Shown: positions 16,768 to 35,798 of the stretch, piece by piece
Layout of the letters: every line of letters begins with the position of its first letter
Position numbering within the stretch: position 1 is the first letter of the stretch
Origin: Pseudomonas oryzihabitans
Lineage (GTDB): Bacteria > Pseudomonadota > Gammaproteobacteria > Pseudomonadales > Pseudomonadaceae
Direction of reading: 5' to 3'
DNA: 64,000 bases
Assembly: GCF_001518815.1 (NCBI RefSeq)
Contig: NZ_CP013987.1
Coordinates: 4,548,501-4,612,500 of the forward strand
The notes under the pieces: generated by a model
Database searches by the model: none
The model's input: only the letters and a program-made list of their open reading frames with translations
Told to the model about the DNA's origin: nothing
Position numbers and translations under genes: made by a program

Positions 16768-16783
16768 GTCGGACCTTAGCCGC

Positions 16784-16807
16784 GAAGGGTGACCGTTCAT
16801 ACCCTTC
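16784..16807 (+). terminator. Candidate hairpin terminator after the xerC-HAD operon
   Basis: A perfect 7-bp stem (GAAGGGT / ACCCTTC) with a 10-nt loop, 17 bp after the HAD-gene stop. No T-run follows, so termination is plausible but not certain. Confidence 0.4.
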
Positions 16808-17230
16808 CAGCCGTCTGCTTGATTCGGCGATTTCGTTAACCAATCGCCAAATTATTCGTCACACTTATTGCCAACAGGGGCCGGCGCTTTGCGATGCCCT
16901 TCACCAAATAAGGCTTGGCCTCGCGAAATTTTGCCAAGCACGCCTCATTTGCCTCTCGATTAGCCCAAGACAAAGGCCGCGATCACCGTCTCGCTGATCA
17001 ATTTCCTTCACCGGCCCTCGCGTTGACAGTCCAAACCCTTTTGACAATCATTGCTCCTGGCTCGAAGTAGCGCTGGGATTGCGCGCTGAGTCTGATGCCG
17101 TAAAGGTCAGGGAAGACAGCATTACCTCCCCTCCTCTGCGCCTCGCCGATGGCTGCTCAAGTTCCTGTTTTCTGCGTTGTCAGGCCTTGATATCGGTAAA
17201 CAAGCCCTCTGTTCATCCCGTCCAGGTGCA

Positions 17231-17249
17231 AACCCGTGCGGTAGCCATG
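17231..17249 (+). promoter_or_regulatory. ops-like element, copy 1
   Basis: AACCCGTGCGGTAGCCATG contains GCGGTAGC, the octamer at the core of the E. coli ops element (GGCGGTAGCnT) that recruits RfaH. It is upstream of a polysaccharide operon that encodes an RfaH homologue. An 18/19 copy follows 53 bp downstream. Confidence 0.6.
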
Positions 17250-17283
17250 TCAAAAAAGGACCGGCTGCCAATGAATACACGGC

Positions 17284-17302
17284 AACCTGTGCGGTAGCCA
17301 TG
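17284..17302 (+). promoter_or_regulatory. ops-like element, copy 2
   Basis: AACCTGTGCGGTAGCCATG differs from copy 1 (17231-17249) by one base. Partial similarity continues downstream (AAAGGAC...GGC). Two copies in tandem in a leader argue against chance and for a functional pause/recruitment site. Confidence 0.6.
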
Positions 17303-17639
17303 CCCAGGCGATGAACAAAGGACGATGGCCGTGCAAGCAATTACCCGCAGGAAAACATGGATGTCATCCGAACGCGTTTCAAACCCCTCAGTAACGCAAC
17401 TTCAGCCGACCCGAAGCAGGCTGACGGGCACTTGCCTGCGCTTTTTCCGGGTCTCGGTAAAACCTTTGATCAGTTGCGGACAATAACTATAGCCGGTACC
17501 GACCGACGTTCATCAGACGGTCATTCAACCAATAAAGGTTGAAACTACCGCTTGCATCTTTTGATTACTGCCGGGCACTGCAAGATCCAGCGTTAACTAC
17601 TTCAACCGCGCCCTGGTCGCGCACACAGAGGAAAGCCCG

Positions 17640-19019
17640 ATGGCAAGGAATGATCTATCGGAATCGACATTAGGATGTCTAATTGGTGGCGCAGGTCCGG
17701 CTGGTCTTGGATTCCTGTTCAACGCCATCAAGCGCGGCGCGATAGAGCAGCTCGCCCGGGCAGGCACCATCATCGTCGATGCCGGAACCGAACTGGGTGC
17801 CGGCAAGCTAGGTGACTACCAGATCATCGCCAACTCGGTGAGCGACGTCTTTCTCGACTGTCTGCGCGATCCCCTGCTGGCCCCCATCCTGGCGCCGCTG
17901 CAGGCCTCACCGACCTTTCGCCATCTCAAGCTGAATGCCCAGGAAGCGCCTGCGCTGCCCATCGTCGGCCAGCTCTTCCAGCAGGCTGCCGGCCTGGTCC
18001 TGCCGTGGCTCGAACGCCAGTACGGCATCCCCACCTGGCGCCAGACCCGCATCACCGAAGTCACCTGCGAAGAATCGGGCTATGTGGTCTGGCTCGAGCA
18101 GGCGGGTGCCATCCGTCGCGTTCGCACCTCCAGCCTGGTGCTGAACCTGGGTGGCGAACAGACGCGGCGCAGCTTCGAGGAAAGCACCCAGGCCCTGGGC
18201 CTGCAACTGCCCCAGAGCGCCTCGATCGACAGCTCCGACAGTCTGCTGCGTCTGCAACCCGAGGCCCTGCGTCAGCGTTACCGCGCGCGTCTCAAGGACG
18301 GCGGCCCCATCTGCGTGGTCGGCGGCTCCCACAGTGCCTTTTCCGCCCTGGACAATCTCGCCAGTGCCCTGCACCACGACGGCCTGCGCGAATTGACCCT
18401 GATCCATCGTTCGCCGATCCGGCTGTTCTACGAGACCGCCGCCGAAGCGGTGGCCGCGGGCTACGACTTCGACCCCCAGCAGGACATCTGCCCCATTTCC
18501 CAGCGAGTCAACCGCTCGGGTGGATTGCGCTACCGGGCCCACGAGATCGGCCGCCAGGTGCTTGCCGGACAGCCCATCGGCGGTACGCCGGTCAAGGTCA
18601 GGGCCCTGCAGCTCGATGGCAGCGCCAAACGCCTGGCCAGCGCCCAGTCGCTGTTCGACAGCGCCGCCCTGCTGGTACAGGGCATGGGCTATCAACCCAT
18701 AGTGCCCGAGCTGCGTAGCCAGGACGGACGTCCCCTGACCCTGCGCACCCTGCGCGGTGGCCTGGATTCCGATGCGGCCGGCTGCCCGCTGGACCAGCAC
18801 GGCCAGCGACTCAAGGGATTGCACCTCTTCGGTCTGGGCTCAGGTCTGGCGGTTGATCCCCGACTGGGTAGCGAGGCGTCCTTTTCCGGACGCATCTACG
18901 GTGTCTGGCAGTTCCACAACGATGCCAGTCGGGAGGCGCTCGACTCGGTACTCAATCGTCTGGACAGGCCTGGCCTCTCGCGCCGGCAACCGGCCGACGC
19001 AGTCGCCGAACACGCTTGA
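17640..19019 (+). CDS. FAD-dependent oxidoreductase, possible N-hydroxylating (class B) monooxygenase
   Basis: 459 aa. Seen: an N-terminal FAD-binding GxGxxG (LIGGAGPAGLGFL, about 15-27), a second nucleotide-binding motif (CVVGGSHSAFSALDNL, about 222-237) resembling the NADPH site of flavoprotein monooxygenases, and LLVQGMGYQP (about 344-353) resembling their ATGY motif. This order fits ornithine/lysine N-monooxygenase-like or related enzymes, but identity is low enough that the reaction is unknown. It is the first gene of the EPS operon, 44 bp before a sugar aminotransferase; the product may act on an amino sugar. A generic FAD oxidoreductase is the alternative. Confidence 0.7.
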   Translation: MARNDLSESTLGCLIGGAGPAGLGFLFNAIKRGAIEQLARAGTIIVDAGTELGAGKLGDYQIIANSVSDVFLDCLRDPLLAPILAPLQASPTFRHLKLNAQEAPALPIVGQLFQQAAGLVLPWLERQYGIPTWRQTRITEVTCEESGYVVWLEQAGAIRRVRTSSLVLNLGGEQTRRSFEESTQALGLQLPQSASIDSSDSLLRLQPEALRQRYRARLKDGGPICVVGGSHSAFSALDNLASALHHDGLRELTLIHRSPIRLFYETAAEAVAAGYDFDPQQDICPISQRVNRSGGLRYRAHEIGRQVLAGQPIGGTPVKVRALQLDGSAKRLASAQSLFDSAALLVQGMGYQPIVPELRSQDGRPLTLRTLRGGLDSDAAGCPLDQHGQRLKGLHLFGLGSGLAVDPRLGSEASFSGRIYGVWQFHNDASREALDSVLNRLDRPGLSRRQPADAVAEHA

Positions 19020-19063
19020 CCGAACCGACACGTATCAAGGACTCGATAAGCAGGTACCGGATC

Positions 19064-20236
19064 ATGATCAATGTGACCAAGCCCTATCTGGGCGACAAGG
19101 AACGCTTCAAGGCGTATATCGACAAGATCTACGCCAACAACTGGATAACCAATCAAGGCCCTCTGCACGCCCAGCTCGAAGAGCGCCTGCGCGATTATCT
19201 AGGGGTCAGAAACATCATCCTGGTCAACAACGGTACCCTGGCCCTGCAGGTCGCCTACCGCGCCCTGGGCCTGTCCGGCAGCGCCATCACCACGCCCTTC
19301 AGCTTCGTCGCCACCACCAGTACCCTGCACTGGGAGGGGATCCGGCCGGTCTTCGCCGACATCCACCCGGAGACCTGGAACCTGGACCCGGCCAACGTCG
19401 AAGCGGCCATCGAGTCCGATACCTCGGCCATCGTCGCCACCCACGTGTTCGGCAACCCCTGCGATGTCCGTGGGCTGCAACAGGTCGCCAATCGCCACGG
19501 CCTGAAGGTCATCTATGACGGTGCCCATGCCTTTGGCACCCTCTACGAAGGCCGCTCCGTGCTGGAGTGGGGCGACATCTCCACCGTCAGCTTCCACGCC
19601 ACCAAGCTGTTCCATACCATTGAAGGCGGGGCGATCATCACCGAAAACGACGAGCTCGCCGAGCGCGTCCGGCGCATGATCAACTTCGGCATCGTCGATG
19701 CCGAGCGCATCGAGGGCGTGGGTATCAACGCCAAGCTCAACGAGGTGTCCGCGGCCATGGGGCTGTGCATCCTGGACGAGCTGGAAGACATCCTGGCCCG
19801 GCGCGCCGTCATCGGCCAGCACTATGAGCGCCGCCTGCAAGGCGCGTTCGACCTGCAGCGCCCCACCTACGGCAGCCAGCTGAACTACAGCTACTTCCCG
19901 GTGGCCCTGCGCGACGAGCCGAGCCTGCTGGACACCAAGAAAGCCCTGAACGCTGTCGGCATCAATCCCCGGCGCTATTTCTATCCGTCCCTGGAAACCC
20001 TGGATTACCTGCAGCCCCAGGCGATCAAGCCGGTCTCGCGCAAGCTGAGCCAGCGCATCCTCTGCGTGCCCATCTATCCGGACCTGCCCCAGACGACTCA
20101 GGACCTGCTGCTCGAGACCCTGCTGTCGGCACAGCAGAAAAAGACCAGCCTGGAATCCCTGCGGGCACTCATCACACCGGCACAGCTGCTGCCGAGCTGG
20201 GATTTTCCCGGCGACTCCTCCCCTGTTCTAACTTGA
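19064..20236 (+). CDS. DegT/DnrJ/EryC1/StrS-family sugar aminotransferase
   Basis: 390 aa. PLP enzyme that transaminates keto-sugar nucleotides to amino sugars. Seen: NNGTLALQVAYRALGL, PFSFVATTSTLHWEG, HVFGNPCD, DGAHAFG, and the PLP-lysine motif SFHATKLFHTIEGG. The last is similar to VioA/FdtB-like enzymes making 4- or 3-amino-dideoxyhexoses. ATG 19064 gives the family N-terminus; an in-frame TTG at 19016 is unlikely. No dTDP- or GDP-sugar precursor genes are in the window, so the nucleotide sugar must come from elsewhere. It probably works with the flavoprotein upstream. Confidence 0.85.
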   Translation: MINVTKPYLGDKERFKAYIDKIYANNWITNQGPLHAQLEERLRDYLGVRNIILVNNGTLALQVAYRALGLSGSAITTPFSFVATTSTLHWEGIRPVFADIHPETWNLDPANVEAAIESDTSAIVATHVFGNPCDVRGLQQVANRHGLKVIYDGAHAFGTLYEGRSVLEWGDISTVSFHATKLFHTIEGGAIITENDELAERVRRMINFGIVDAERIEGVGINAKLNEVSAAMGLCILDELEDILARRAVIGQHYERRLQGAFDLQRPTYGSQLNYSYFPVALRDEPSLLDTKKALNAVGINPRRYFYPSLETLDYLQPQAIKPVSRKLSQRILCVPIYPDLPQTTQDLLLETLLSAQQKKTSLESLRALITPAQLLPSWDFPGDSSPVLT

Positions 20237-20255
20237 CCCTGGCCCGCTATCTCCC

Positions 20256-21791
20256 ATGACCAGTCCCGCGAAAGTGTCGGTGTTGCGTAACACCCTGATC
20301 AACTATGCCGGCCAAGCCTATGCGCTGCTGATCGGTATCTTGATCCAGCCGATGTATCTCGGTCATCTGGGTGCCGAAACCTACGGTCTGATCGGCTTCT
20401 TCGCCGTGCTGCAGACCTGGCTGCAACTGCTCGACGTCGGCATTTCCGCCTCGCTGGTCCGCGACGTCGCCCACGGCCGTGGCCAGACGGGCGCGGCGGG
20501 TACCCGCGGCCAGCTGCTGCGGTCACTGGAATTCATCTTCATTCCCCTGGCGACTCTGGCCTTCGTCGCCATCGAGCTGAATTCCAACTGGATGGCGGCC
20601 CATTGGCTCAACGTCCAGGGCCTACCCACGGAAACCGTGGCCCACTGCATTGGCCTGATGGGGCTGATGATCGCCTTTCGCCTGCTGTCGACGCTGTACA
20701 AGAGCGGCGTCCAGGGTGTCGAGCTGCACGGCTGGCTGAATCTGGTCAACGTGCTGATCGCCACGGTGCGCTACTTCGGCGGCCTGATCCTGGTGATGTG
20801 GATTTCCCAGGAGCCCCTGGACTTCTTTGTGTTCCAGGCCTTCGTCGCCGTCTTCGAGATGCTGGTCTATGCGCTCAAGGCCTATCGCCTGCTGCCCAAC
20901 CCCACCTGGTGGAGCGGTTTCGACTGGCAACGCGTGAAGCCCATCGTGCCCTTCGCGCTAAGCATGTCCTTCACCTCTATTCTGTGGATCGCCCTGACCC
21001 AGCTCGACAAGCTGGTGCTGTCCAAGGCCCTGCCGCTGTCCGAATACGGCTACTTCAGCCTGGTGGCGCTGATCTCCACCGGCATCGTCACCCTGACCAA
21101 CCCGCTGGTGCAGGCGCTGCTGCCACGCATGACGGTACTGGTATCCCAGGAGAAACCGCTCGAACTGGAAAGGCTCTATCGCAACGCGGCACGCTTTGCC
21201 TTCGGCATCCTGCTGCCCCTGGCGGCCATGGTGGCCTTCCACGGCGAGGCGCTGGTCTTTGCCTGGACCGGTGACAAGGTCTCCGCCCACTGGAGCGAGC
21301 CGATCCTGTTCTGGTACGCCTTGGGCTCCGCCCTGCTCGCCCTCAGCCAGTTCCAGTTCTACCTGCAGTACGCCTACGGCAAGTTGCGCCTGCACGTCTG
21401 GTACAGCCTGGTCTCCGCGGCCATCTCCGTGCCCATCGTGATCCTGGTGGTCCTGCATTACGGCGCTTATGGCGCGGCGCTGGCCTGGTTCTTCATGCGC
21501 CTGATCCCCTTCGTGATCTGGCCGATGATCGTGCACGGCCGCTTCGCGCCGAATCTGCAGCGCTACTGGAACCAGGATCTGCTGGTGGCCGTAGTGGTGA
21601 CCGCCATCGGCGTGGGCCTGAGCAAGCTGCTGTACCAACAGATTCAACCGCAGGAGCGATTTTCCATCCTGGCCACCCTTGCCCTGGGCGGCGGACTGAC
21701 CCTGGTGCTGATGGCGCTGAGCTACGTGCTCTGTTCTCCGAAACAGACCCGTACGCGCCTGTTTTCCCAACTCTACAAAGCAGGTATCTGA
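20256..21791 (+). CDS. Wzx-type polysaccharide flippase (first copy)
   Basis: 511 aa. MOP-superfamily membrane protein with about 12-14 hydrophobic segments, which would flip undecaprenyl-linked repeat units. Seen: the family-typical N-terminus NYAGQAYALLIGILIQPMYL and GAETYGLIGFFAVLQ, later LSEYGYFSLVALISTG, and alternating hydrophobic helices to the C-terminus. It lies between the aminotransferase and a glycosyltransferase gene. A second Wzx gene occurs at 41245. Confidence 0.85.
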   Translation: MTSPAKVSVLRNTLINYAGQAYALLIGILIQPMYLGHLGAETYGLIGFFAVLQTWLQLLDVGISASLVRDVAHGRGQTGAAGTRGQLLRSLEFIFIPLATLAFVAIELNSNWMAAHWLNVQGLPTETVAHCIGLMGLMIAFRLLSTLYKSGVQGVELHGWLNLVNVLIATVRYFGGLILVMWISQEPLDFFVFQAFVAVFEMLVYALKAYRLLPNPTWWSGFDWQRVKPIVPFALSMSFTSILWIALTQLDKLVLSKALPLSEYGYFSLVALISTGIVTLTNPLVQALLPRMTVLVSQEKPLELERLYRNAARFAFGILLPLAAMVAFHGEALVFAWTGDKVSAHWSEPILFWYALGSALLALSQFQFYLQYAYGKLRLHVWYSLVSAAISVPIVILVVLHYGAYGAALAWFFMRLIPFVIWPMIVHGRFAPNLQRYWNQDLLVAVVVTAIGVGLSKLLYQQIQPQERFSILATLALGGGLTLVLMALSYVLCSPKQTRTRLFSQLYKAGI

Positions 21792-21792
21792 C

Positions 21793-22728
21793 ATGGACGC
21801 TCGGACCGAAGCAGAGATCATGAAGAACTGGCCTACCGACTCCAGTCGGCCAGTCGTCAGCGTCGTCTGCCTGACCTTCAACCATCGTGACTACATCGCC
21901 CAGGCCATCGATGGCTTCCTGCGGCAACAGACCAATTTCCCCTTCGAGATCATCATCAACGATGACGCCTCGACCGATGGTACCCGGGACGTTCTCAAGG
22001 ACTACGAGAGCCGTTACCCCAAACTGATCCGCCTGATCCTGCAACAGGAAAACCAGTACAGCCTGGGCAAGCCCTATGGCATGCCGGTCTTCCAGCACGC
22101 CCGCGGCGACTACATCGCCTACTGCGAAGGCGACGACTACTGGAACGACCCGCGCAAGCTGCAGCTGCAGGTGGATTTCCTGGAAAACAATCGGGACTAC
22201 GCCCTGACCTTCCATGCCTCCTATGCCTTCAACAGCAAGGGCATCGTCAATCCGCAGCGCTTCGATGGCCAGGATCACTACGACCGCAGCGAGACCGAGC
22301 TGAAGCAGGCCCTGCCGCTGTCCACCCTGACCGCCTGCTTCCGCAATGTCCTGCGGGGACTGCCGCCGGAACTGGAAACCGCCGCGCTCATGGACATCGT
22401 CTGGTGGTCGCTGCTGGGCGCCCATGGCAAGGGCAAGTTCATGGAGGAAATCCGTCCGGCCGCCTACCGCGTGCACGAGGGTGGCATCTTCTCCATGCGC
22501 GCCAGCCAGAAGCGCCTGCAGATGGATCTCCATACCCAGTACTGCCTCGCCAACTACTACTACCGCCTCGGCGACAGAGACCTGCACATCTTCTTCCTGC
22601 GCCAGGTCCTGAGTCTTTCGCTGTCCTCGATTCCGCCGACCCAGAAGGTCAAGGCGCTGCTTCGAGCGGTGTGCAACATCACTGTGAACATCGGGCGACG
22701 CTTCGCCCCCAAACGCGTCACCTACTGA
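21793..22728 (+). CDS. Family 2 glycosyltransferase
   Basis: 311 aa. GT-A fold. Seen: N-terminal VSVVCLTFNHRDYIAQAI, nucleotide-binding INDDASTDGT, the DxD-like EGDDYWNDPRKL, and WWSLLGAHGKGKF in the acceptor half. It starts 1 nt after the flippase stop, so is translationally coupled. The sugar it transfers is not predictable. Confidence 0.87.
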   Translation: MDARTEAEIMKNWPTDSSRPVVSVVCLTFNHRDYIAQAIDGFLRQQTNFPFEIIINDDASTDGTRDVLKDYESRYPKLIRLILQQENQYSLGKPYGMPVFQHARGDYIAYCEGDDYWNDPRKLQLQVDFLENNRDYALTFHASYAFNSKGIVNPQRFDGQDHYDRSETELKQALPLSTLTACFRNVLRGLPPELETAALMDIVWWSLLGAHGKGKFMEEIRPAAYRVHEGGIFSMRASQKRLQMDLHTQYCLANYYYRLGDRDLHIFFLRQVLSLSLSSIPPTQKVKALLRAVCNITVNIGRRFAPKRVTY

Positions 22729-22786
22729 ACTTACCCATAGCAGTTTTCCGGCTGCGACGTATCCAGCTAAGAGGAAGGGATCCCCC

Positions 22787-25000
22787 ATGACCGCCATGCA
22801 GCGCTCTTCGTTCGAACAACACGAAGAACAACATCTGGACCTCAAGACGATGGCCCTCACGCTTCTCGATCACAAGAAGCTGATCGCGGGCATCACCGCG
22901 GGCTTTCTGGCCGTGGGCATCACCTATGCCGTGCTGTCCACCCCGCAGTACATCGCCGGGGCGATGATCCAGATCGAACCCAAGAAGAATGCACTCACGG
23001 CGGTTGCCGAGACCGTGGTGCGCCCCAACTCGGCCTCGCCGGCGGTAGCCGAGATCGAGCTGCTGAAGTCGCGCGCGGTGCTGACCAAGACCGTGGAGAA
23101 CCTGCGCCTGGATATCGAAGCCAAGCCACGCTTCTTCCCGCTGATCGGCCACTACCTGTGGCGGACCTACGAAGCCGACAAGCCGGGTCAACTGGCGGAC
23201 AGCTGGTCGCCGCTGCGCGGTTTCGCCTGGGGCGGCGAGCAGATCGACGTCTTCCAGTTCGACGTTCCGGACGACATGTACGGCGAGACCCTGACGGTCG
23301 TGGCCGGCAACAACGGTCGCTATCGCCTGCTGGACAAGGACAAGCAGCCGCTGCTGGATGGCCAGGTCGGCCAGATGGCCAGCGGTAACGGCTATCGCAT
23401 GCAGATCAAGACGCTGACCGCGCGTCCTGGCACCGAATTCAAGGTGACCCGCAACCGCGTCATCACCACCGCCCAGCTCTATCAGAACCGCATCAAGACC
23501 AGCGAAGCGGGCAAGGAATCGGGCATCATCTACCTGTCCCTGGCGGACGAGAATCCCGACCTGGCCAAGAGCGTCCTGTCCGAGATCAGCCGCCTGTACG
23601 TGCTGCAGAACGTCGAGCGCAGCTCGGCGGAAGCGGCGCAGCGCCTGGACTTCCTGCGCGGCCAGCTGCCGGCGGTACGCAAGGACCTGGAAAGTGCCGA
23701 AGCGGCGCTGAACAGCTATCAGACCAACAGCCGCTCCGTGGACATCAGCCTGGAAACCAAGGCGGTCCTGGACAAGATCGTCACCCTCGACAGCTCCATC
23801 TCCCAGCTCAAGCTCAAGCAGGCTGAATACGATCGCCTCTATACCCGCGATCACCCCAGCTACAAGACCCTGCTGAACCAGCTCGCTCAGCTGGAAGTGG
23901 AAAAACGTAGCTTGTCGCGCAAGGTGGAAGCCCTGCCCAGCACCCAGCAGGAGCTGCTGCGCCTGAACCGCGACATGAAGGTCACCAACCAGACCTATCA
24001 GCTGCTGCTCAACCAGGCTCAGGAACAGGACATCATCCGCGCCGGCACCATCGGCAACGTGCGCCTGGTCGACAACGCCGACGTCAACCTCGACGAACCG
24101 GCCACCAACCGCAAGATCGCGCTGATCCTGTCGCTGCTGCTGGGTCTGGTGACGTCCGTCGTGGTGGTCTTCGTTCGCCAGGCCTTCCAGAAGGGCATCG
24201 AGAATCCCGACACCGTCGAGCAGATCGGCCTGCCGGTCTACTCCACCCTGCCCTTCACCAAGGACCAGGAGCGCCTGAACCGTCGCCTGAAGAAGAAGAC
24301 CCGCACCGGCGAGCCCAATCTGCTGAGCGTGGTGCAACCGGCCAACCTGGCGGTGGAATCCCTGCGCAGCCTGCGTTCGAGCCTGCACTTCGCCATGCTG
24401 GAAGCCAAGAACCGGGTGATCATGATTTCCAGCCCGACCCCGGGCGTCGGCAAATCCTTCGTCTCCAGCAACCTCGCCGTGGTAGTCGCCCAGTCGGGTC
24501 AGCGCGTACTGCTGATCGACGCCGACATGCGCAAGGGCTACCTGCACCGCGTGTTCGGCCTGCAGCCCCAGGCCGGCCTGTCCGAACTGCTGACTGGCCG
24601 CAGCAAGCTGCGCGAAACCATCGTGCCGAGCGGTGTCGCCCAGCTGGATGTCATCGGCTGCGGTCAGGCCGCGCCGAATCCCTCGGAGCTGCTGATGCAC
24701 GCCAACTTCTCCCGTCTGCTGGACGAAGTGGGCAGCCTCTATGACCTGGTGATCGTCGATACCCCGCCGATCCTGGCGGTGACCGATGCCGCCCTGGTGG
24801 GTCGTCTGGCCGGTACCACGCTGCTGGTCACCCGTTTCGGTCAGAGCACCCTCAAGGCCGTGGAGAACTCCCGTCGTCGCTTCGCCCAGAACGGCATCAC
24901 CATCAAGGGCGCCATCCTCAACGGGGTCCAGCGCAAGGCGTCGATGGCCATCGAGGACGATGGCGCCTATGGCTACTACGAATACGGCCCCCGTACCTGA
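22787..25000 (+). CDS. Wzc-type polysaccharide co-polymerase and tyrosine autokinase (first copy)
   Basis: 737 aa. Controls chain length and export of capsule/EPS. Seen: a Wzz domain with a first TM helix (about 27-50), a periplasmic coiled-coil region, a second TM helix (about 443-463), then a BY-kinase domain with Walker A PTPGVGKSF (about 545-555), Walker A' VLLIDADMRKG, Walker B LVIVDTPP and a C-terminal Tyr cluster AYGYYEY for autophosphorylation. A paralogue of the same size lies at 35799, but no phosphatase or Wza is next to this copy. A GGAAGGGA ribosome binding site precedes the ATG. Confidence 0.93.
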   Translation: MTAMQRSSFEQHEEQHLDLKTMALTLLDHKKLIAGITAGFLAVGITYAVLSTPQYIAGAMIQIEPKKNALTAVAETVVRPNSASPAVAEIELLKSRAVLTKTVENLRLDIEAKPRFFPLIGHYLWRTYEADKPGQLADSWSPLRGFAWGGEQIDVFQFDVPDDMYGETLTVVAGNNGRYRLLDKDKQPLLDGQVGQMASGNGYRMQIKTLTARPGTEFKVTRNRVITTAQLYQNRIKTSEAGKESGIIYLSLADENPDLAKSVLSEISRLYVLQNVERSSAEAAQRLDFLRGQLPAVRKDLESAEAALNSYQTNSRSVDISLETKAVLDKIVTLDSSISQLKLKQAEYDRLYTRDHPSYKTLLNQLAQLEVEKRSLSRKVEALPSTQQELLRLNRDMKVTNQTYQLLLNQAQEQDIIRAGTIGNVRLVDNADVNLDEPATNRKIALILSLLLGLVTSVVVVFVRQAFQKGIENPDTVEQIGLPVYSTLPFTKDQERLNRRLKKKTRTGEPNLLSVVQPANLAVESLRSLRSSLHFAMLEAKNRVIMISSPTPGVGKSFVSSNLAVVVAQSGQRVLLIDADMRKGYLHRVFGLQPQAGLSELLTGRSKLRETIVPSGVAQLDVIGCGQAAPNPSELLMHANFSRLLDEVGSLYDLVIVDTPPILAVTDAALVGRLAGTTLLVTRFGQSTLKAVENSRRRFAQNGITIKGAILNGVQRKASMAIEDDGAYGYYEYGPRT

Positions 25001-25049
25001 TCCGCCGCTCCGCCGCGACTGACTGCTTCCCAGAGAAGGAACTCACCCC

Positions 25050-25580
25050 ATGACGCTCGCCCATCCCACCGGTCACTGGTATCTGGTGCAGACCAAGCCC
25101 AACCAGGAAGCCCGGGCTGAAGAAAACCTGAGCAGACAGGGCTATGTCTGCTTCAGGCCCCAGCGCGAGCGCAAGGCGTCGGGTAGAAGTCGCGCGGCAG
25201 GCAGCGAGTCGCTGTTCCCGGGTTATCTGTTCATTCAGCTCAACGACGTGAACGACAACTGGTATCCCATCCGCTCGACTCGCGGCGTCAATCGGATCGT
25301 CAGCTTCGGCACTCAGCCGACGGCCGTGAGCGAAGGCATCATCGACGACATCCGCCAGCGGCTCGCCACGCTGGCGGAGCCTGCTCCTACCCACCAGCCC
25401 GGCGAGACCGTGCGGGTGCAGTACAGCCAGGCGCTGGAAATGGACGCGGTTTTCCTGAGCGCCGACGGTAACGAGCGGGCAATCATCCTGCTCCGCATCC
25501 TGCAGCGCGAACAACGGGTCAGCGTTTCTCTTGATCAATTGTCGGCAGCGACTCCCGTCAACCAACGGTTGCGCGCCTGA
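25050..25580 (+). CDS. RfaH-type specialised NusG paralogue (transcription antiterminator)
   Basis: 176 aa. RfaH proteins bind RNA polymerase paused at ops and prevent termination in long polysaccharide operons. Seen: the NGN domain with WYLVQTKPNQEARAEENL, GYVCFRPQRERK, LFPGYLFIQL and RGVNRIVSFG, then a shorter C-terminal KOW-like part (GETVRVQYSQALEMDAVF, IILLRILQREQRVSV) lacking the classical KOW glycines, as in RfaH. The gene is embedded in the EPS operon rather than unlinked. Two ops-like copies in the operon leader are its likely targets. A good AAGGA site precedes the ATG. Confidence 0.88.
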   Translation: MTLAHPTGHWYLVQTKPNQEARAEENLSRQGYVCFRPQRERKASGRSRAAGSESLFPGYLFIQLNDVNDNWYPIRSTRGVNRIVSFGTQPTAVSEGIIDDIRQRLATLAEPAPTHQPGETVRVQYSQALEMDAVFLSADGNERAIILLRILQREQRVSVSLDQLSAATPVNQRLRA

Positions 25581-25615
25581 CCAAGAACTGTAAGACCCTT
25601 TGGAGGAGTCTCTTC

Positions 25616-26614
25616 ATGCAATGCAAAACCACGGTCGTTACCGTCACCTACGGCAATCGCCTCGGCTATCTGGAGCAGCTGGTCACCCGCGCCCTGGCCG
25701 AACGCACCATTCACCAGGTCGTGGTGGTGAGCAACGCGGCGACGGTGTCCCTGGATAGCCTCGAAGCCCGCTGGCCCGGCCAGGTCAAGGTGATCGCCCT
25801 GAGCGAAAACACCGGGTCCGCCAACGGTTACGCCGTGGCCCTGGAAGCCGCCCTGGCCACCGATACCACCCATATCTGGATGATGGACGACGACAACGCT
25901 CCCCTGGGCGATGCCCTCGAGGTGCTGCATCGCCGTCTGGACGAACTCGGGGCCGTCCATGGCCGCGACAAGGTCGCCGTGCTCGGCTACCGGCCGACCC
26001 AGCAGGCCGACATCGCCCAGTGCATTCCCACCCGGATGATCACCCAGCCACGTTCGAGCTACTTCGGCTTCCACGTGGCCCGTATCCCCTACAAGATCTG
26101 GCGCCGCCTGCCCTGGGGTCGTCCGCGCGGCGGCAAGCCGGAAGCCCTGGTCGAGCTGCCCTTCGCGCCCTATGGCGGCATGCTGGCCCACCGCAGCCTC
26201 TATGAGCGCATCGGCCTGCCGCTGCGCGAGCTGGTGCTCTACTCCGACGACACCGAGTACACCTACCGCATCACCCAGGCCGGCGGAAAGCTGTTCATGG
26301 TCACCGAGGCGGAGCTCGAAGAGCTGGAGCACTCGTGGAACATCAAGGAAGGCACCAGCAACGTCTACCAGAACTACCTGCAGGCCGGCTCGGACTTCCG
26401 CGCCTACTACGCCGCCCGTAACCAGGCCTGGTTCGACAAGAACGTCTGGGCCAGCTCCCGGCCGATGTACAGCCTCAACCGCTACGTCTTCCACACGCTG
26501 CTCAAGTGGTTCGCACGCGACGACAAGAGCCGCCAACGTCTGGCCCTGATCCGGCAGGCGGTCCAGGACGGCGAAACCGGGGCCCTGGGTATAAACCGCA
26601 GCTATCCACTATGA
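25616..26614 (+). CDS. Family 2 glycosyltransferase
   Basis: 332 aa. Seen: VVTVTYGNRLGYLEQLVTRAL, VVVSNAATVS, the acidic metal/donor motif WMMDDDNAP, and LVLYSDDTEYTYRITQAGG, which resembles galactofuranosyl- and rhamnosyl-transferase-type GT2 proteins. The start is the ATG at 25616, with GGAGGAG upstream. It overlaps the next glycosyltransferase by 4 nt (ATGA). Donor and acceptor unknown. Confidence 0.85.
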   Translation: MQCKTTVVTVTYGNRLGYLEQLVTRALAERTIHQVVVVSNAATVSLDSLEARWPGQVKVIALSENTGSANGYAVALEAALATDTTHIWMMDDDNAPLGDALEVLHRRLDELGAVHGRDKVAVLGYRPTQQADIAQCIPTRMITQPRSSYFGFHVARIPYKIWRRLPWGRPRGGKPEALVELPFAPYGGMLAHRSLYERIGLPLRELVLYSDDTEYTYRITQAGGKLFMVTEAELEELEHSWNIKEGTSNVYQNYLQAGSDFRAYYAARNQAWFDKNVWASSRPMYSLNRYVFHTLLKWFARDDKSRQRLALIRQAVQDGETGALGINRSYPL

Positions 26615-27858
26615 AACTGCTCTTTCTCAACAGCTTCTATCCGCCCCATGTGGGCGGAGGCGCAGAGCTCATCCTGCAACGCAGCGTGGAAGGCTTCCAG
26701 CAGCGCGGCCACGAGGTCGCCGTGCTGGTGACCGGCCCCGAGCAGGGTGTGCACCAGGAGACGGTGAACGACGTTCGCGTCTATCGCGCCGGGCTGAAGA
26801 ATTTCTACTGGCCCCTGACCCAGCAGCGCCCCGGTCCGCTGGCGCGCTTCGGCTGGCACTTTCGCGACCAGTACAACAGCGCGATGCGCGCGCCCCTGCG
26901 CGAGGTGCTGCAACGGGAAAAACCGGACCTGGTGGTGTGCCACAACCTGTCCGGCTGGTCGGTAGCGGCCTGGGACGAGATTCGCGACAGCGGTACCCCC
27001 ATCGTCCAGGTGCTGCACGACATGTATCTGCTGTGCCCGAAGAACACCCTGTTCAAGAAGGGCCAGAGCTGCCAGAACCTTTGTGGCAGCTGTGCCGCCC
27101 TGCGTCGGCCCCACGCCGAGCATTCCGCCAAGGTGGATGCCGTCGTCGGTGTCAGCCGCTACCTGCTGGACACCATCCTGAACAAGGGGTACTTCCGCGG
27201 CGTGCCGAGCCAGGTCATCCACAACAGCAGCCTGATCGCCGGCAGCACCGCGGAGATCCCGGCAGCCAGGTCCGACGGCGCCGTCCGCTTCGGCTACATG
27301 GGCACCCTGTCGGAAAACAAGGGCGTGGGCTGGCTGATCGAGCAGTTCCAGCGCCTGTCGCTCAACGCGACCCTGACCATCGCCGGCAAGGGCCAACTGG
27401 ATTACGAAGCCCAGCTCAAAGCCATGGCCGATCCCCAGAAGGTCAGCTTCGTCGGCTATCAGAAGCCCGCGGACTTCTATCGAGAGATCGACGTCTTCGT
27501 GGCGCCTTCGCTATGGGCCGAGCCCTTCGGCATGGTCGCCGTCGAGGCCTGCGCCTTCCAGAAGCCGGTCATCGCCAGCCGCATGGGCGGCCTGCCGGAG
27601 ATCGTCAGGGATGGCGTGAACGGCCTGCTCTGCAATGCCGAGGACCGCGATTCCCTGGGACGTGCCCTGCAACGCCTGCATGACGATGCCGAGCTGCGGC
27701 AGCGACTGAGTCTGCTGAGCCGGACCGCGGTGGCTGACCTGCTCAGCATGGACACCATGCTCGACAGTTACCAGAGCCTCTTCGAGCGCGTCCTGGGCGA
27801 GGCGCAGCATGGCTCGACCGCGGCGCGTCACGTTCCTCATACACAGCTTTCCAACTGA
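26611..27858 (+). CDS. Family 4 glycosyltransferase
   Basis: 415 aa, GT-B fold. Seen: LLFLNSFYPPHVGGGAELIL at the N-terminus, a Cys-rich stretch (LLCPKNTLFKKGQSCQNLC, then CAAL) in the acceptor half, and the GT4 donor motif EPFGMVAVEACAFQKPVIAS with a conserved E(X7)E. The start overlaps the previous gene (ATGA); a longer frame upstream is inside that gene. The CxxxC-like Cys pattern is found in some GT4 enzymes, possibly binding zinc (inference). Confidence 0.87.
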   Translation: MKLLFLNSFYPPHVGGGAELILQRSVEGFQQRGHEVAVLVTGPEQGVHQETVNDVRVYRAGLKNFYWPLTQQRPGPLARFGWHFRDQYNSAMRAPLREVLQREKPDLVVCHNLSGWSVAAWDEIRDSGTPIVQVLHDMYLLCPKNTLFKKGQSCQNLCGSCAALRRPHAEHSAKVDAVVGVSRYLLDTILNKGYFRGVPSQVIHNSSLIAGSTAEIPAARSDGAVRFGYMGTLSENKGVGWLIEQFQRLSLNATLTIAGKGQLDYEAQLKAMADPQKVSFVGYQKPADFYREIDVFVAPSLWAEPFGMVAVEACAFQKPVIASRMGGLPEIVRDGVNGLLCNAEDRDSLGRALQRLHDDAELRQRLSLLSRTAVADLLSMDTMLDSYQSLFERVLGEAQHGSTAARHVPHTQLSN

Positions 27859-27888
27859 TCCACCCAGGTCACGGCAACGGGCAGAATC

Positions 27889-28977
27889 ATGATCATCGTC
27901 AATTCCCGCTTCATCACCCAGGATCTTCGCGGCGTTCAACGCTTCGCGGAATGCATATCGCTGGAGCTGGCGAAGCTGCGATCCGACCTGCGCTTCGTGG
28001 CGCCGCCCGGCGTCGTCAGGCCCGACGTGGCCAAGCGACTGAACATCGAAATCATTGGCACTCGCCAAGGCCAGCGCTGGGAGCAATGGGACTTGCCGAA
28101 CTGGTTGAAAAGCCAGGGCAGCCCCCTGCTGCTGTCGCTGTGCAGCACGGCGCCGCTGCTCTACACCAACCAGATCGCCACGCACCACGACATCAACTAT
28201 GTGCGCTTTCCCGAAAGCTATTCGTGGAAATTCCGCACCTCGTATCGCTGCCTGATCCCCATGCTGCTCAAGCGGGCGAACTCCCTGATCACCGTCAGCG
28301 AATTCTCCCGGGACGAGATCTCGCGCTTCTATCGCTATCCGAGCAGCTCGATCACGGTCGTGCCCAACGCCGTGGCCGACGCCTTCACCCTGGCAGATCG
28401 GGTCGCTGGCGCAGAACGCCCCTATCTGCTGGCGGTGTCCTCGCCCAGCTACCACAAGAATTTCTCGCGGATGCTGGAAGCCTTCGCCGCGCTGCCCCGG
28501 GATCTGAACGTCGAATTGCGCATCGTGGGTGACAGCCACGCCGTGTTCGGCCAGAGCGATCTGGTGACCCTGGCCGCCAGGGATCCTCGGGTGAAGCTGC
28601 TCGGCCGCATCGACGACGCGGAACTGGCTCGCCAGTATTGCCAGGCCACCGCCTTCGTCTTCCCGTCGCTCTACGAGGGTTTCGGCATTCCGCCCCTCGA
28701 AGCCCAGGCGTGCGGCTGCCCGGTGATCTCCGCCAACACCGCCTCCATGCCAGAGGTGCTGCAGGACAGCGTGCTCTACTTCGATCCCCACGAGACCTCC
28801 AGCATCACCACGGCGATGTGGACCATCCTGCAGGACGAGCAACTCAGGAACACGCTGCGCACCAAGGGCCTGGCCAATATCCAGCGCTTCAACTGGCAGA
28901 CCTCCGCGAGCAAGGTCTCCGCGCTGCTGGACAAGGCCCTGGCAACGGCACCCAAGACCACCGACAGGGCTGCCTGA
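27889..28977 (+). CDS. Family 4 glycosyltransferase (mannosyltransferase-like)
   Basis: 362 aa. Seen: VNSRFITQDLRGVQRFAECI, ATHHDINYVRFPESYSWKFR, LITVSEFSRDEISRFYRYP, YLLAVSSPSYHKNFSRMLEAF, and the donor motif YEGFGIPPLEAQACGCPVIS with its E(X7)E. These resemble WbdB/MtfB-type mannosyltransferases, but the sugar is not certain. It is the last gene of the tightly packed run before a 402-bp gap. Confidence 0.85.
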   Translation: MIIVNSRFITQDLRGVQRFAECISLELAKLRSDLRFVAPPGVVRPDVAKRLNIEIIGTRQGQRWEQWDLPNWLKSQGSPLLLSLCSTAPLLYTNQIATHHDINYVRFPESYSWKFRTSYRCLIPMLLKRANSLITVSEFSRDEISRFYRYPSSSITVVPNAVADAFTLADRVAGAERPYLLAVSSPSYHKNFSRMLEAFAALPRDLNVELRIVGDSHAVFGQSDLVTLAARDPRVKLLGRIDDAELARQYCQATAFVFPSLYEGFGIPPLEAQACGCPVISANTASMPEVLQDSVLYFDPHETSSITTAMWTILQDEQLRNTLRTKGLANIQRFNWQTSASKVSALLDKALATAPKTTDRAA

Positions 28978-29379
28978 AAACACATCACGACACTAGATCA
29001 GTGACCAAGAAAACTCATGGAAGAGACATGCAAAGCCTTGGAAGGCCAGAGTCGTTTTTCTGCCTCCCTGACTCTCGAGAACGCCTCATGCGAGTCCAGA
29101 CACGTCGTGCAGGCCGCTGATCGCCACGTCCTGGAAGGTGGCTCGAACAACACTGCGGTCGCGGCCGCGGAGCACCTGGAAAACGCCTACTTTTTCGAAA
29201 AGCCTGCAACCGACGCCGTCTTTGCGAAAAGCCCAAACATCAAGTTGCACGAACTCGAAAGCGCCGTGGAAGGCATCGAGATTACTCGGCTGCCCTGGGG
29301 ATATGCAGTGACCAGAAAAACCAGCACTCCATGAATCAGCACCAGCACTTGATTTCATTTCACGCTTAAGGAAGACGAC
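28978..29379 (+). other. Spacer between two EPS glycosyltransferase genes
   Basis: A 402-bp stretch more AT-rich than its neighbours. It holds one plausible small ORF (29017-29334, entered separately) and no clear terminator. The ribosome binding site of the next gene (AAGGAAG) lies at its right end. Confidence 0.5.
29017..29334 (+). CDS. Hypothetical small protein
   Basis: 105 aa, no recognised domain or signal peptide. Start-proximal AGAAAACTC is a poor ribosome binding site. Third-position GC is moderately high and the frame is open throughout, which is weak support for coding. It has two Cys and many Glu/Ala. It may be a real small gene of the EPS operon, a decayed gene, or chance. Confidence 0.3.
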   Translation: MEETCKALEGQSRFSASLTLENASCESRHVVQAADRHVLEGGSNNTAVAAAEHLENAYFFEKPATDAVFAKSPNIKLHELESAVEGIEITRLPWGYAVTRKTSTP

Positions 29380-30579
29380 ATGAAAATCGCCATCGTTCAC
29401 GACTGGTTGGTAACCTTTGCTGGCGCCGAACGCGTGCTTGCTGAACTGCTCGATATCTGGCCGGAGGCCGACCTGTTCAGCGTGATCGACTTTCTGTCGG
29501 ACGAGGATCGGGCGCTCCTGCAAGGCAAGCAGGCGACCACGACCTTCATCCAGCGTCTGCCCCAGGCCAAGAAGCGCTATCAGACCTATCTGCCGCTCAT
29601 GCCGCACGCCATCGAGCAACTCGACCTGTCCGGCTATGACCTGATCATTTCCAGCAGCCATGCAGTGGCCAAGGGCGTCCTGACCGGCCCGGACCAGCTG
29701 CACATCAGCTACGTCCACTCGCCCATCCGCTACGCCTGGGACCTGCAACACCAGTACCTCAAGGAAGCCGGTCTGGACCGCGGCCTCAAGGGCAAGCTGG
29801 CGCGCGTCATCCTGCACTACATCCGCATTTGGGATCAGCGCACCGCCGCTGGCGTGGACGCCTTCGTGGCCAACTCCTACTTCATCGCCCGTCGCATCAG
29901 CAAGGCCTATCGCCGCGAAGCCAAGGTCATCTACCCGCCGGTCGACATCAGCCGCTTCACCCCGGCTGGCGACAAGGACGACTTCTACCTGACGGCCTCG
30001 CGCATGGTGCCCTACAAGCGCATGCCCATGATCGTCGAAGCCTTCAGCCAGATGCCCGACAAGAAGCTGGTGGTGATCGGCGCCGGCCCCGAGTTCGAAA
30101 AGGCCAAGGAAGTCGCCGGCCCCAACGTCACGCTGCTGGGTTACCAGGACTTCGACTGTCTGCTCGATCACATGCGCCGAGCACGGGCCTTCGTCTTCGC
30201 CGCCGAGGAAGACTTCGGCATCACCCCCATCGAAGCCCAGGCCTGCGGTACGCCCGTCATCGCCTATGGCCGGGGTGGCGTGCTGGAGACCGTGCGGGGC
30301 CTGGAAACTCAGCATCCCACCGGCGTCTTCTATCCGGAGCAGAGCGTAGCCTCACTCTGTGCCGCCGTGCGCCAGTTCGAAGCCCTGGAAACGCCGATCA
30401 GCCAGCAGGCGTGCCGACAGAACGCCGAACGCTTCGCGACCAAGCGTTTCCGTCAGGAAATGCGTGCCTTCGTCGAAGCCCGGGTTGCCGCGCTGCATCT
30501 GCCAACCGACCTGGATCTGGATATCGTGACGCCCTTTCCCAGCAAGGGCCTACAGCCGAGTTCGCTGAACACGGCCTGA
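29380..30579 (+). CDS. Family 4 glycosyltransferase
   Basis: 399 aa. Seen: MKIAIVHDWLVTFAGAERVL (typical of WbaZ-like GDP-mannose transferases), SYVHSPIRYAWDLQHQYL, FVANSYFIARRISKAYRREA, a DFYLTASRMVPYKRMPMIVEAF hinge, and EEDFGITPIEAQACGTPVIAYG with the donor E(X7)E. Its AAGGAAG site is 8 nt before the ATG. It converges with the oxaloacetate decarboxylase gene with only 3 bp between the stops, ending the first EPS half. Confidence 0.87.
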   Translation: MKIAIVHDWLVTFAGAERVLAELLDIWPEADLFSVIDFLSDEDRALLQGKQATTTFIQRLPQAKKRYQTYLPLMPHAIEQLDLSGYDLIISSSHAVAKGVLTGPDQLHISYVHSPIRYAWDLQHQYLKEAGLDRGLKGKLARVILHYIRIWDQRTAAGVDAFVANSYFIARRISKAYRREAKVIYPPVDISRFTPAGDKDDFYLTASRMVPYKRMPMIVEAFSQMPDKKLVVIGAGPEFEKAKEVAGPNVTLLGYQDFDCLLDHMRRARAFVFAAEEDFGITPIEAQACGTPVIAYGRGGVLETVRGLETQHPTGVFYPEQSVASLCAAVRQFEALETPISQQACRQNAERFATKRFRQEMRAFVEARVAALHLPTDLDLDIVTPFPSKGLQPSSLNTA

Positions 30580-30582
30580 TCG

Positions 30583-31446
30583 TTACTCCTTCACGTCCAT
30601 GAATTCCCGCGCCCAGACTCGATATTCCTGCAATGTCGAGTACTTGGTGGACAGCTCGGAAGCGGACAGATCGGACGCCGTGATGTCGCGCTGCTCTCGC
30701 AGGCAATCGTAGGTCGCCTTGATCGCGGCGAAGTAGGCGGCATGACCATTCACCACCACCCGTACCCCGGCCTTGGCCAGGCGTGCGTTGTCGCGCAGCT
30801 GGGGATTGCCGTAGGTCACCAGCATCACCGGGACGGTCAGGTGCTGGGTAATCTCTTCCAGATGATCGAAGTCGCGAATGCCGACCATGCAGATGCCATC
30901 CGCGCCCGCCGCCTCGTAGGCCTTGGTGCGGGAGATGACTTCCGCGGTGCTCAGTTCGGTGGCATTGGTGCGAGCGAAGATGCTCAGGGCTTCGTCGATA
31001 CGGGCTTCCAGCGCACCCTTAATCTTGCCGATGCCCTCTTCGACGCTCACCAGGTCGGTGGATTTGCGACCATAGCCAGCCGGCAGCACGGTGTCCTCGA
31101 TGGTCAGGGCCGCTACCCCGGCCCGTTCGAGCTCGGTGATGGTACGCATGACGTTCAGGGCATTGCCGTAGCCGTGATCGGCGTCGGCGATGATGGGCAG
31201 GCGTGCGACCCGGCCAATGCGCGTGGCCTGTTCGACGAACTCGCTCAGGGTGATCAAGGCGAAGTCCGGTGCCGCCAGGACCTGCAGGGAAGCCACCGAC
31301 CCGCCGAGAATGCCCATTTCGAAACCGAGGTCGTTGGCGATGCGCGCCGACATGGGATCGAAGACGGACGCCGTGTGGTAGCAGCTGTCCGATTTCAGCA
31401 GGGCTCTGAACGCTAAACGCAGCTTGTGCGGGGAGGTTGGCTTCAT
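30583..31446 (-). CDS. Oxaloacetate decarboxylase of the isocitrate lyase/PEP mutase superfamily
   Basis: 287 aa. Very like the characterised Pseudomonas PA4872-type oxaloacetate decarboxylase. Seen: [40 protein letters not shown], the Mg2+ site [16 protein letters not shown], and [17 protein letters not shown], where other family members carry the KKCGH-type catalytic Cys loop. It decarboxylates oxaloacetate to pyruvate in the cytoplasm. It is opposite in strand to all EPS genes and has no obvious link to EPS. Confidence 0.9.
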
Positions 31447-33305: not shown

Positions 33306-33775
33306 GGCGTTCCGCAGGCCAGGGACTGGCCTACATCCGATCTGAGCATTCAGCCTGTCTCAATGTTTAGTGAACAGGATCACAAATCCTACATCCCGCG
33401 CTCAAGTCCGACGGAACGTTTTCCCCTCTCGTGCTGCCCAGATAAACCACTCATCGCGCCTTGATGCGATAGAAGTGTGCCACCCGTCCGGCCGCGCTGT
33501 GACGCACTCCCCCCTTCTTCACATCCCCTCTCCCGCCGCACCTCGTCTGGCGTGCTATTTGCCCTGATTTGGGCTAGCTCGACAGCGCCTCCCTGCCTTT
33601 CTACCGTGTGAACCTCTTAATCAGTGCCGAGTCCTAACGTCGCTACAGCCATCATGGCATTTAGCGATCGGTGGTCAGTCATCGGTCCTAGAGCGCCATA
33701 GTGAACATTTCATACGCTGGTAGCTGCCCCGCCCAGTTGAAAGTTCGTGCACGGTATACGCACAAGGATGGAACC
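33306..33775 (+). other. Intergenic region upstream of the second EPS operon
   Basis: 470 bp, relatively AT-rich, no supported gene. It contains a CCTGT(N14)ACAGG dyad near 33353-33376 and a JUMPstart-like element at 33717-33726. The operon promoter is probably here, but no clear -35/-10 pair is visible. Confidence 0.5.
33717..33726 (+). promoter_or_regulatory. JUMPstart-like element
   Basis: CTGGTAGCTG equals the upstream conserved block of the JUMPstart sequence found before enterobacterial polysaccharide operons. It lies 49 bp before the initiating sugar-transferase start. The downstream ops half (GGCGGTAGC) is not found after it. Confidence 0.4.
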
Positions 33776-35185: not shown

Positions 35186-35193
35186 GATACGGC

Positions 35194-35210
35194 CGGGGCC
35201 ACGGGCCCCG
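35194..35210 (+). terminator. GC-rich hairpin after the sugar-transferase gene
   Basis: CGGGGCC/GGCCCCG with a 3-nt loop, 9 bp after the stop. It lacks a T-run and may only attenuate transcription before wzb. Confidence 0.35.
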
Positions 35211-35345
35211 CTACTCAGCACGACGATCTGGAGCCTGGACTCCTGACTCTAATTACATCGGCAGCGAGCAACGCCTGAAGACAGGCCATTGCTGGGCTAT
35301 CTGCCGTCGATACCTGTTGTCCGGACAACAGGAAGGTTTTGAAGA

Positions 35346-35783
35346 ATGATCAAGTCAATATTGGTTGTATGCGAAGGGAACATCTGCCGCAGCCCGGTCG
35401 CAGAAGCACTACTGGCCAAGGCACTGGAAGGCCGTGACGTCCAGGTCAGCTCCGCTGGTATCAGGGCGCTGGTTGGTCATGGCATTGAGAAGACTGCACA
35501 GGAGGTACTCCGGGAAAACGGTATCGATTCCACTACCCACAAAGCTCGCCAAGCGGATGCGGAAATGCTGCGCAAGGCGGATTTGATTTTGACCATGGAA
35601 GAGTTTCACTCACGCTCCGTCGAAAGTATTGCTCCTGAAGTCAGGGGTAAGGTTTTTCTGATCGGGAAATGGTTGAGCAATCAAGAAGTACCAGACCCTT
35701 ATCGCCTTTCTAAAGAGATGTTTCAAAATGTGCACATACTTTTGACGCGCTGTGTAGACAGTTGGCTTCCATACATCAAATAG
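35346..35783 (+). CDS. Wzb-type low-molecular-weight protein tyrosine phosphatase
   Basis: 145 aa. Dephosphorylates the Tyr cluster of Wzc, a cycle needed for polymer export. Seen: the P-loop VCEGNICRSPVAEALL (C(X)5R-S), and the DPYRLS motif near the C-terminus carrying the general-acid Asp. It lies 15 bp before the second wzc. Base composition is clearly more AT-rich than the adjacent genes, suggesting separate origin. It is the only such phosphatase in the window. Confidence 0.93.
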   Translation: MIKSILVVCEGNICRSPVAEALLAKALEGRDVQVSSAGIRALVGHGIEKTAQEVLRENGIDSTTHKARQADAEMLRKADLILTMEEFHSRSVESIAPEVRGKVFLIGKWLSNQEVPDPYRLSKEMFQNVHILLTRCVDSWLPYIK

Positions 35784-35798
35784 GGAAGAAGGAATTTC

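Follow-up and report, generated by a model that had tools for sequence, protein, structure and literature searches.

Tandem ops-like elements in the leader of a Pseudomonas oryzihabitans exopolysaccharide operon that encodes its own RfaH-type protein

An exopolysaccharide (EPS) operon of Pseudomonas oryzihabitans raises the question of why two copies of an element resembling ops (operon polarity suppressor), the site at which Escherichia coli RfaH binds paused RNA polymerase, should precede a set of genes that itself includes a gene for an RfaH-type protein. The operon lies in a stretch of 64,000 nucleotides (contig NZ_CP013987.1, positions 4,548,501 to 4,612,500 of the forward strand), here named the window, to which coordinates refer unless a genome or locus position is indicated. 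In the current work we consider it probable that the two tandem elements recruit RfaH to its own operon, and that a single ops recruits the same protein to a relocated Wzy-like gene outside the window. A preliminary description of this DNA had reported two 19-bp copies differing by one base within a gene-free leader of about 870 bp. Both features were recovered: the copies share 18 of 19 bases with a start-to-start distance of 53 bp, and no open reading frame (ORF) of at least 100 amino acids is present in the leader on either strand. The features of this leader are as follows.

16768 to 17639, plus strand: gene-free leader of the EPS operon (ORF list; aligned in 10 genus members)
17023 to 17051, plus strand: promoter-like TTGACA-N17-AATCAT (consensus scan, 10 of 12 matches), of presumed function
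17225 to 17234, plus strand: weak predicted short hairpin before copy 1, 3 bp, GGT-GCAA-ACC (stem scan, 26-mer identical to that of locus L142; arm-recombination control)
17231 to 17249, plus strand: ops-like copy 1, core GCGGTAGC at 17238-17245, TG at ops positions 12-13 (repeat and conservation)
17279 to 17290, plus strand: weak predicted short hairpin before copy 2, 4 bp including one G-T pair (stem scan)
17284 to 17302, plus strand: ops-like copy 2, core GCGGTAGC at 17291-17298, TG at ops positions 12-13 (repeat and conservation)

The 14-mer GTGCGGTAGCCATG, located at 17236-17249 and 17289-17302, has no other exact copy in the 4,834,356-base genome, and the five occurrences of GCGGTAGCNNTGYC in this genome comprise three inside open frames of at least 150 codons and, outside such frames, the two leader copies only. 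The core GCGGTAGC alone occurs in the window at chance level (3 seen, 2.46 expected), and it is the pairing, together with the longer match and conservation, that carries the case. The third core of the window (23042-23049) lies inside the wzc-type gene, recurs there in only part of the genus (L044, L048, L049) and seems to be a coding coincidence. Patterns of spaced cores are likewise not diagnostic alone, and position and conservation were relied on instead: 148 of 298 family genomes have cores separated by 76-106 bases, leader pairs being mixed with many others, and at 35-65 bases the genome studied here matches once, its backwards-read control 10 times. In relatives, the two copies overlap ORFs of at least 100 amino acids in 21 and 24 of 63 cases, which is uninformative since the DNA is GC-rich.

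The leader alignment that had been proposed as a check was performed for 10 genus members, the window included, and distinguishes the repeats from their surroundings: 18 of 19 columns are invariant in copy 1 and 17 of 19 in copy 2, as against 3 of 43 in the spacer. Both hexamers of the promoter-like site are invariant in the same alignment. An RfaH relative is present in 11 of 13 genus genomes; the two without it (G091 and G106) have a single Wzc match, at 48% identity, and seem to lack the EPS operon, and therefore offer no test of repeat loss following loss of rfaH alone.

More widely, a set of named loci, being the best 80 of 442 confirmed rfaH relatives, was classified according to whether a pair is present 4.5-9 kb upstream of rfaH or a copy 0.43-2.2 kb downstream. 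A pair of GCGGTAGC was retrieved from 62 of the 80, situated 5.1-8.7 kb upstream of rfaH with a spacing of 51-120 bp (147 in one locus); a single exact copy is present upstream in six and downstream in eight, and four end too near rfaH to be classified. Absence of the repeats from relatives that keep rfaH had been named as evidence that would count against the proposal, and the outcome is mostly in its favour, with the pair kept in the 62 loci and one exact copy remaining in the six; in one of these (L220) a further copy, differing at a single base, is present. In the family, an rfaH match was obtained in 172 of 298 genomes searched, and 80 stretches chosen from the listed part of these, some of them short, comprise 37 with the pair, 29 with one element downstream, three with two downstream, two with one upstream and nine with none; this set overlaps the named one and is not independent of it. 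At class level, 81 of 369 genomes gave a match, one being the genome under study, and of the other 80 loci, 40 were examined, several of them on short contigs, and none has a GCGGTAGC pair within 30-200 bp. These 40 comprise 14 with one copy downstream, three in which a single copy precedes rfaH by 101-539 bases and 23 with none.

The tandem arrangement with rfaH inside the operon is thus real and conserved and, among the genomes examined, is confined to Pseudomonadaceae operons of this kind. The view that two ops copies are unusual agrees with this cross-genus comparison and with the rfb and waaQ leaders of E. coli K-12, which hold one GCGGTAGC each. The three class-level loci with an upstream copy, from other gammaproteobacteria, have a single E. 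coli-form ops just before rfaH (L262, at -539; L315, at -509; L321, at -101), and a self-controlled layout with one ops may therefore also exist; self-control alone consequently fails to explain the doubling.

Could a single copy be sufficient, the other being a relic or spare left by a harmless duplication in an operon of the usual ops/RfaH kind? The six named loci with one exact copy upstream of rfaH and the same gene order fit such an explanation, as do the two E. coli leaders with one full ops each. It does not account for the near-invariance of both copies around a spacer that has largely changed, nor for the persistence of the pair across genera in which RfaH is only about 50% identical, and we regard it as unlikely.

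The operon downstream of the tandem elements consists of eleven same-strand ORFs, which, together with their starts, were chosen by us from the ORF list.

17640 to 19019, plus strand: first EPS gene, 459 amino acids, no family match, same place in genus members
19064 to 20236, plus strand: DegT/DnrJ aminotransferase (Pfam PF01041)
20256 to 21791, plus strand: Wzx-type flippase (Pfam PF01943)
21793 to 22728, plus strand: family 2 glycosyltransferase (Pfam PF00535)
22787 to 25000, plus strand: Wzc-type tyrosine autokinase / chain-length protein (NCBIfam, Pfam)
25050 to 25580, plus strand: P0001, an RfaH-type NusG paralogue (TIGR01955); sixth gene, with the ops pair about 7.8 kb upstream
25616 to 26614, plus strand: family 2 glycosyltransferase (Pfam)
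26605 to 27858, plus strand: family 4 glycosyltransferase (Pfam)
27889 to 28977, plus strand: family 4 glycosyltransferase (Pfam)
29017 to 29334, plus strand: small ORF, 105 amino acids, without Pfam match, which may not be a gene
29380 to 30579, plus strand: family 4 glycosyltransferase (Pfam), last co-directional gene, followed by a minus-strand gene

Two of the eleven are without a family match, and the gaps between them (17640 to 30579) range from -10 to 58 bases, or from 1 to 58 bp up to rfaH. The placement of an RfaH-type gene sixth in the operon, as first described, holds with this choice of ORFs and starts, and its product passes the TIGR01955 cut-off. No sigma-70-like promoter was detected within 17600-30700 by a scan for which 2.1 were expected and whose reach excludes other promoter types, and terminator-like sites in the same interval number 8 on both strands (7.4 expected). 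We infer from this arrangement that the eleven ORFs form one transcript. The order, strand and gaps fit an autogenous loop in which rfaH is downstream of the ops pair, and it is this position of rfaH behind its own signal that suggests a positive-feedback switch.

A third site, which offers the most informative hint at function, indicates that the protein may act beyond this operon. GGCGGTAGCGTG, an E. coli-form ops, is present at genome position 4612860 (L289:4861-4872), 360 bases beyond the window end and about 39 kb away from rfaH, where it precedes an apparently lone gene with a product of 433 amino acids. A simple scan assigned about 11 hydrophobic segments to this protein; a weak, sub-threshold match to Wzy_C was obtained with a 470-amino-acid version (E 6.8e-4, 19.9 bits, cut-off 31.7), and no NCBIfam match was found. 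The site is well over 100 bases before the chosen ATG (L289:4991), and between the two, relatives show single-base indels, as in non-coding DNA. GCGGTAGCGTG is invariant before the lone gene in all 10 genus leaders aligned. In 27 of the 80 named loci, a homologue (42-46% identity, with E no higher than 1e-3) follows rfaH in the same orientation, 1.7-2.8 kb from the rfaH start; none was found behind rfaH in the other 53, which include the genus's own L141-L148, nor in the window. Of the 11 genus genomes with rfaH, 10 carry the stand-alone gene; the eleventh (G083, taken as L178) has the homologue behind rfaH, and neither of the two genomes lacking rfaH has the gene. The simplest account would be that, in this group, the Wzy-like gene moved out of the operon while remaining under RfaH by means of its own ops. 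A lone gene with a conserved ops, whose homologue elsewhere lies behind rfaH, supports action of RfaH in trans, probably beyond its own operon, and favours GCGGTAGC as the sequence that RfaH recognises here. Sites of the type GGCGGTAGCNTG number 11 in the genome (15 in the control), 10 of them in stop-to-stop frames of at least 150 codons, the Wzy-like leader included; the only one outside long open frames, GGCGGTAGCCTG at L279:1501 (genome 621537), is a possible further RfaH target.

P0001, a protein of 176 amino acids, scores 158.6 bits against NCBIfam TIGR01955 (cut-off 144.5) and 114.1 bits, below the cut-off of 124, against a second RfaH model, NF006534, and a fold search returned RfaH and NusG/Spt5 relatives as top matches. 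A whole-genome search for the NusG domain retrieved two genes, P0001 and a stronger match elsewhere, and a second rfaH was not detected in it. Among the named relatives, the closest proteins are those of P. oryzihabitans and near strains (80-95% identity, L141-L148). R16 and T72 of E. coli RfaH are counted among its ops-contact residues. Contact roles are further described for H20, R23, Q24 and R73 (PMC5995543) and for K10 and R73 (PMC7593976; papers are cited here from excerpts throughout). Six of these seven residues, being K10, R16, R23, Q24, T72 and R73, are identical in P0001, and H20 is replaced by N; of 38 related proteins, 24 share this N and 14 have H.

The discussion of operon-linked RfaH homologues as possibly constitutively active, monomorphic proteins (PMC13015549) raises a second alternative, namely that P0001 acts in cis only and independently of ops, being captured by the polymerase transcribing its own gene, while the repeats serve otherwise. 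The AlphaFold2 model of P0001 places the C-terminal domain in the beta, NusG-like form (mean predicted local distance difference test score, pLDDT, 75.6; predicted template modelling score, pTM, 0.54), and operon-linked homologues are enriched for such a prediction in the excerpted text of PMC13015549. However, the L162 protein, whose gene precedes a single E. coli-form ops, is also modelled as beta (82.9 and 0.61), both models having been made with the same alignment sequences, on which the predicted C-terminal fold depends; AlphaFold2 therefore cannot separate monomorphic from metamorphic RfaH in this case. The autoinhibition positions E48, I93 and F130 (PMC7593976) are all kept in P0001, even though E48 is replaced by Q and I93 by V in 7 of the 38 related proteins, and the separate Wzy-like gene with its conserved ops argues for action in trans. 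A cis-only protein is accordingly considered quite improbable.

With respect to the elements themselves, the statement that both copies contain the E. coli ops core stands as far as the core is concerned, which is exact, including the C3-G8 pair, G5 and T6; what differs is the TG dinucleotide. Both copies read GCGGTAGC-CA-TG, with TG at positions 12-13, one base later than in E. coli, and lack the TG at positions 11-12 which is present at the third site and in the E. coli form (GGCGGTAGC-N-TG). Where an upstream pair is missing, the element that first follows rfaH has the sequence G-GCGGTAGC-N-TG in 47 of 47 distinct cases (from the family set, the named set and the first 20 class loci), and L090, L109 and L120 have a further downstream copy deviating from the E. 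coli form. For the 63 pairs (62 named loci and the window), copy 1 is GCGGTAGC-NN-TG in 55, the E. coli form in seven and another in one, and copy 2 is the E. coli form in 33, NN-TG in 24 and another in six; Fisher values for the register contrast ignore relatedness and were not leaned on. According to the excerpts of PMC5995543, all validated E. coli targets have TG at positions 11-12, T11G is among the strongest ops defects, recruitment in vitro is not abolished by G12C even though this change removes the U11 pause, and RfaH is able to bind polymerase halted at C9 or G10. Taken with a TG that lies one base later, these results would predict that the pause register is altered and the recognition core is not.

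A bolder version, rather doubtful though worth stating, is that the proximal GCGGTAGC-NN-TG is a register-shifted ops that evolved with in-operon rfaH, this element pausing polymerase or loading RfaH poorly when alone and the tandem acting as a threshold gate that would render the operon bistable, the relocated gene being under graded control. If true, the operon would fire only with RfaH already present, and the relocated polymerase gene would respond gradedly.

A predicted hairpin tends to adjoin the core on its upstream side, as indicated by a scan for stems ending 0-5 bases before it. An inverted repeat enclosing the core had been considered, did not fit the window copies and was replaced, without a formal test, by this upstream hairpin. 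Of the elements, 93-94% are above their own shuffle mean, with a mean folding z of only -1.5 (copy 1) and -1.1 (copy 2), and single elements are therefore rarely significant. A stronger control was obtained by recombining 5' and 3' halves between elements: for the two copies pooled (40 elements with likeness below 65%) the stem score is 11.57, as against a control mean of 9.17 and maximum of 10.24, and in each of nine overlapping sets 0 of 300 recombined controls match the observed score. Other leader positions have a mean stem score of 7.2. The 31 single downstream elements score 13.2 against 9.4, a value reached by 0 of 300 controls. The E. coli rfb and waaQ leaders have the same hairpin layout with arms exchanged (CTGG/CCAG and CAGG/CCTG), and a conserved stem-loop is described for JUMPstart elements (PMC2864571). 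The corresponding Rfam covariance model, RF01707, scores 60 and 55.2 bits for the E. coli leaders (L221 and L222), and did not match the window leader (E up to 10) or L163 and L157 (E up to 1); nor did Rfam return a JUMPstart match anywhere in the window.

As the hairpin-plus-GGTAGC module is also present in RNA, the repeats might alternatively be sites for an unrelated regulator or for RNA-based control, for example by a leader RNA that titrates RfaH. The small RNA RirA, which binds RfaH, is annotated in the waaQ leader of E. coli K-12 and would fit such control. The exactness of the ops core in both copies and at the third site, and the fact that the elements accompany rfaH, speak against such a role, to which we attach very little probability. 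That the repeat arose by chance without any regulatory role is scarcely conceivable, being suggested by the chance-level frequency of the 8-mer GCGGTAGC in the window and contradicted by conservation of the pair in the window, in 10 genus loci and in other genera.

The preferred reading, that of RfaH recruitment by tandem ops-type elements, may be set out as follows. Each of the two leader elements would consist of a predicted RNA hairpin, followed by GCGGTAGC and the TG pause dinucleotide, at which RNA polymerase would pause while the non-template strand folds a small GCGGTAGC hairpin to be bound by RfaH. RfaH would then ride with the polymerase and suppress pausing and Rho termination along the operon, rfaH itself included, and the two copies would give each transcript two loading chances for a scarce, self-encoded factor. 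The same RfaH would act in trans on the Wzy-like gene by means of the single E. coli-form ops about 39 kb away. Recruitment at the tandem elements is, on this evidence, very likely, and positive feedback through in-operon rfaH likely.

Several observations weigh against this proposal. The six named loci with one exact copy upstream share the gene order of the tandem ones. Nearly all tandem operons have that order in common, and a single origin of the pair is therefore possible. Both window copies have A at position 11, to be set against the strong T11G defect in E. coli, and loading of RfaH may be weaker here or occur in another register. In the window's clade the stems have only 3-4 pairs and are scarcely above shuffles. 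The genome count of GCGGTAGCNNTGYC does not exceed that of its reversed-pattern control (6), and GCGGTAGC pairs occur elsewhere by chance, for example one each in G106, G036 and G047. The third site lies within two long stop-to-stop frames, though before the start codon chosen here.

Among known systems, the nearest is E. coli RfaH with the ops/JUMPstart leaders of rfb and waaQ, which is similar in the mostly conserved ops-contact residues, the GCGGTAGC core and a hairpin directly upstream. It differs in having one full ops with TG at 11-12 in each leader (a partial GGTAGC lies 21 nt upstream, in the hairpin region), whereas the present operon has two full elements with TG at 12-13, and rfaH within. 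Loci of Pseudomonadaceae and other gammaproteobacteria with a single ops likewise have RfaH beside a likely target, and a predicted hairpin with GCGGTAGC; their one E. coli-form element follows rfaH, which is thus not behind that signal. Antiterminators encoded in their own operons include LoaP, and P0001 is below the cut-offs for both LoaP (35.7 vs 125 bits) and UpxY (47.4 vs 100 bits). UpxY of Bacteroides, TaA of Myxococcus and the RfaHs of Shewanella CL7, the latter in putative EPS operons, are similarly operon-encoded, and the recruitment of such NusG paralogues is called unknown in the excerpted part of PMC7593976, whereas here a candidate recruitment element is visible. Predicted monomorphic RfaH homologues are preferentially located within or beside long operons (PMC13015549), and the brp leader of Vibrio vulnificus has an ops together with Rho utilization (rut) sites (PMC7819879). 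The EPS273 locus of Pseudomonas stutzeri 273 resembles the present operon in having genes for an RfaH-domain protein, a flippase, a tyrosine kinase and a DegT protein, and its RfaH-domain protein EPS273-M is proposed to be a direct activator (PMC5532660); ops elements are not mentioned in the excerpted account.

No account of tandem ops elements in a genome was recognised in the literature searched, which consisted largely of titles and mostly excluded subscription journals. The tandem elements with in-operon RfaH would be a variant on known ops/RfaH control, the tandem form being new within that literature. These loci form a natural set in which candidate elements for operon-encoded RfaHs can be seen and are conserved, tandem and single elements contrast in sequence, and a relocated gene has a site of its own. 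Two questions thereby become accessible to experiment: does an antiterminator encoded in its own operon build a switch, and is RfaH loading tuned by the distance from core to pause dinucleotide?

Finally, some minor features of the region and its relatives were observed. A second polysaccharide set, without GCGGTAGC, is present at 33701-38015 (sugar transferase, low-molecular-weight phosphatase and a second Wzc). In L043 (G113) the first EPS gene matches as two adjacent pieces, one covering residues 1-228 and the other residues 229-459, with a one-base shift of frame between them, and it appears to be frame-shifted in that record. Upstream of the EPS leader in L052, L054-L056 and L058, two similar GGTAGC-bearing stretches are located about 245 bases apart, and presumably resemble tRNA genes.

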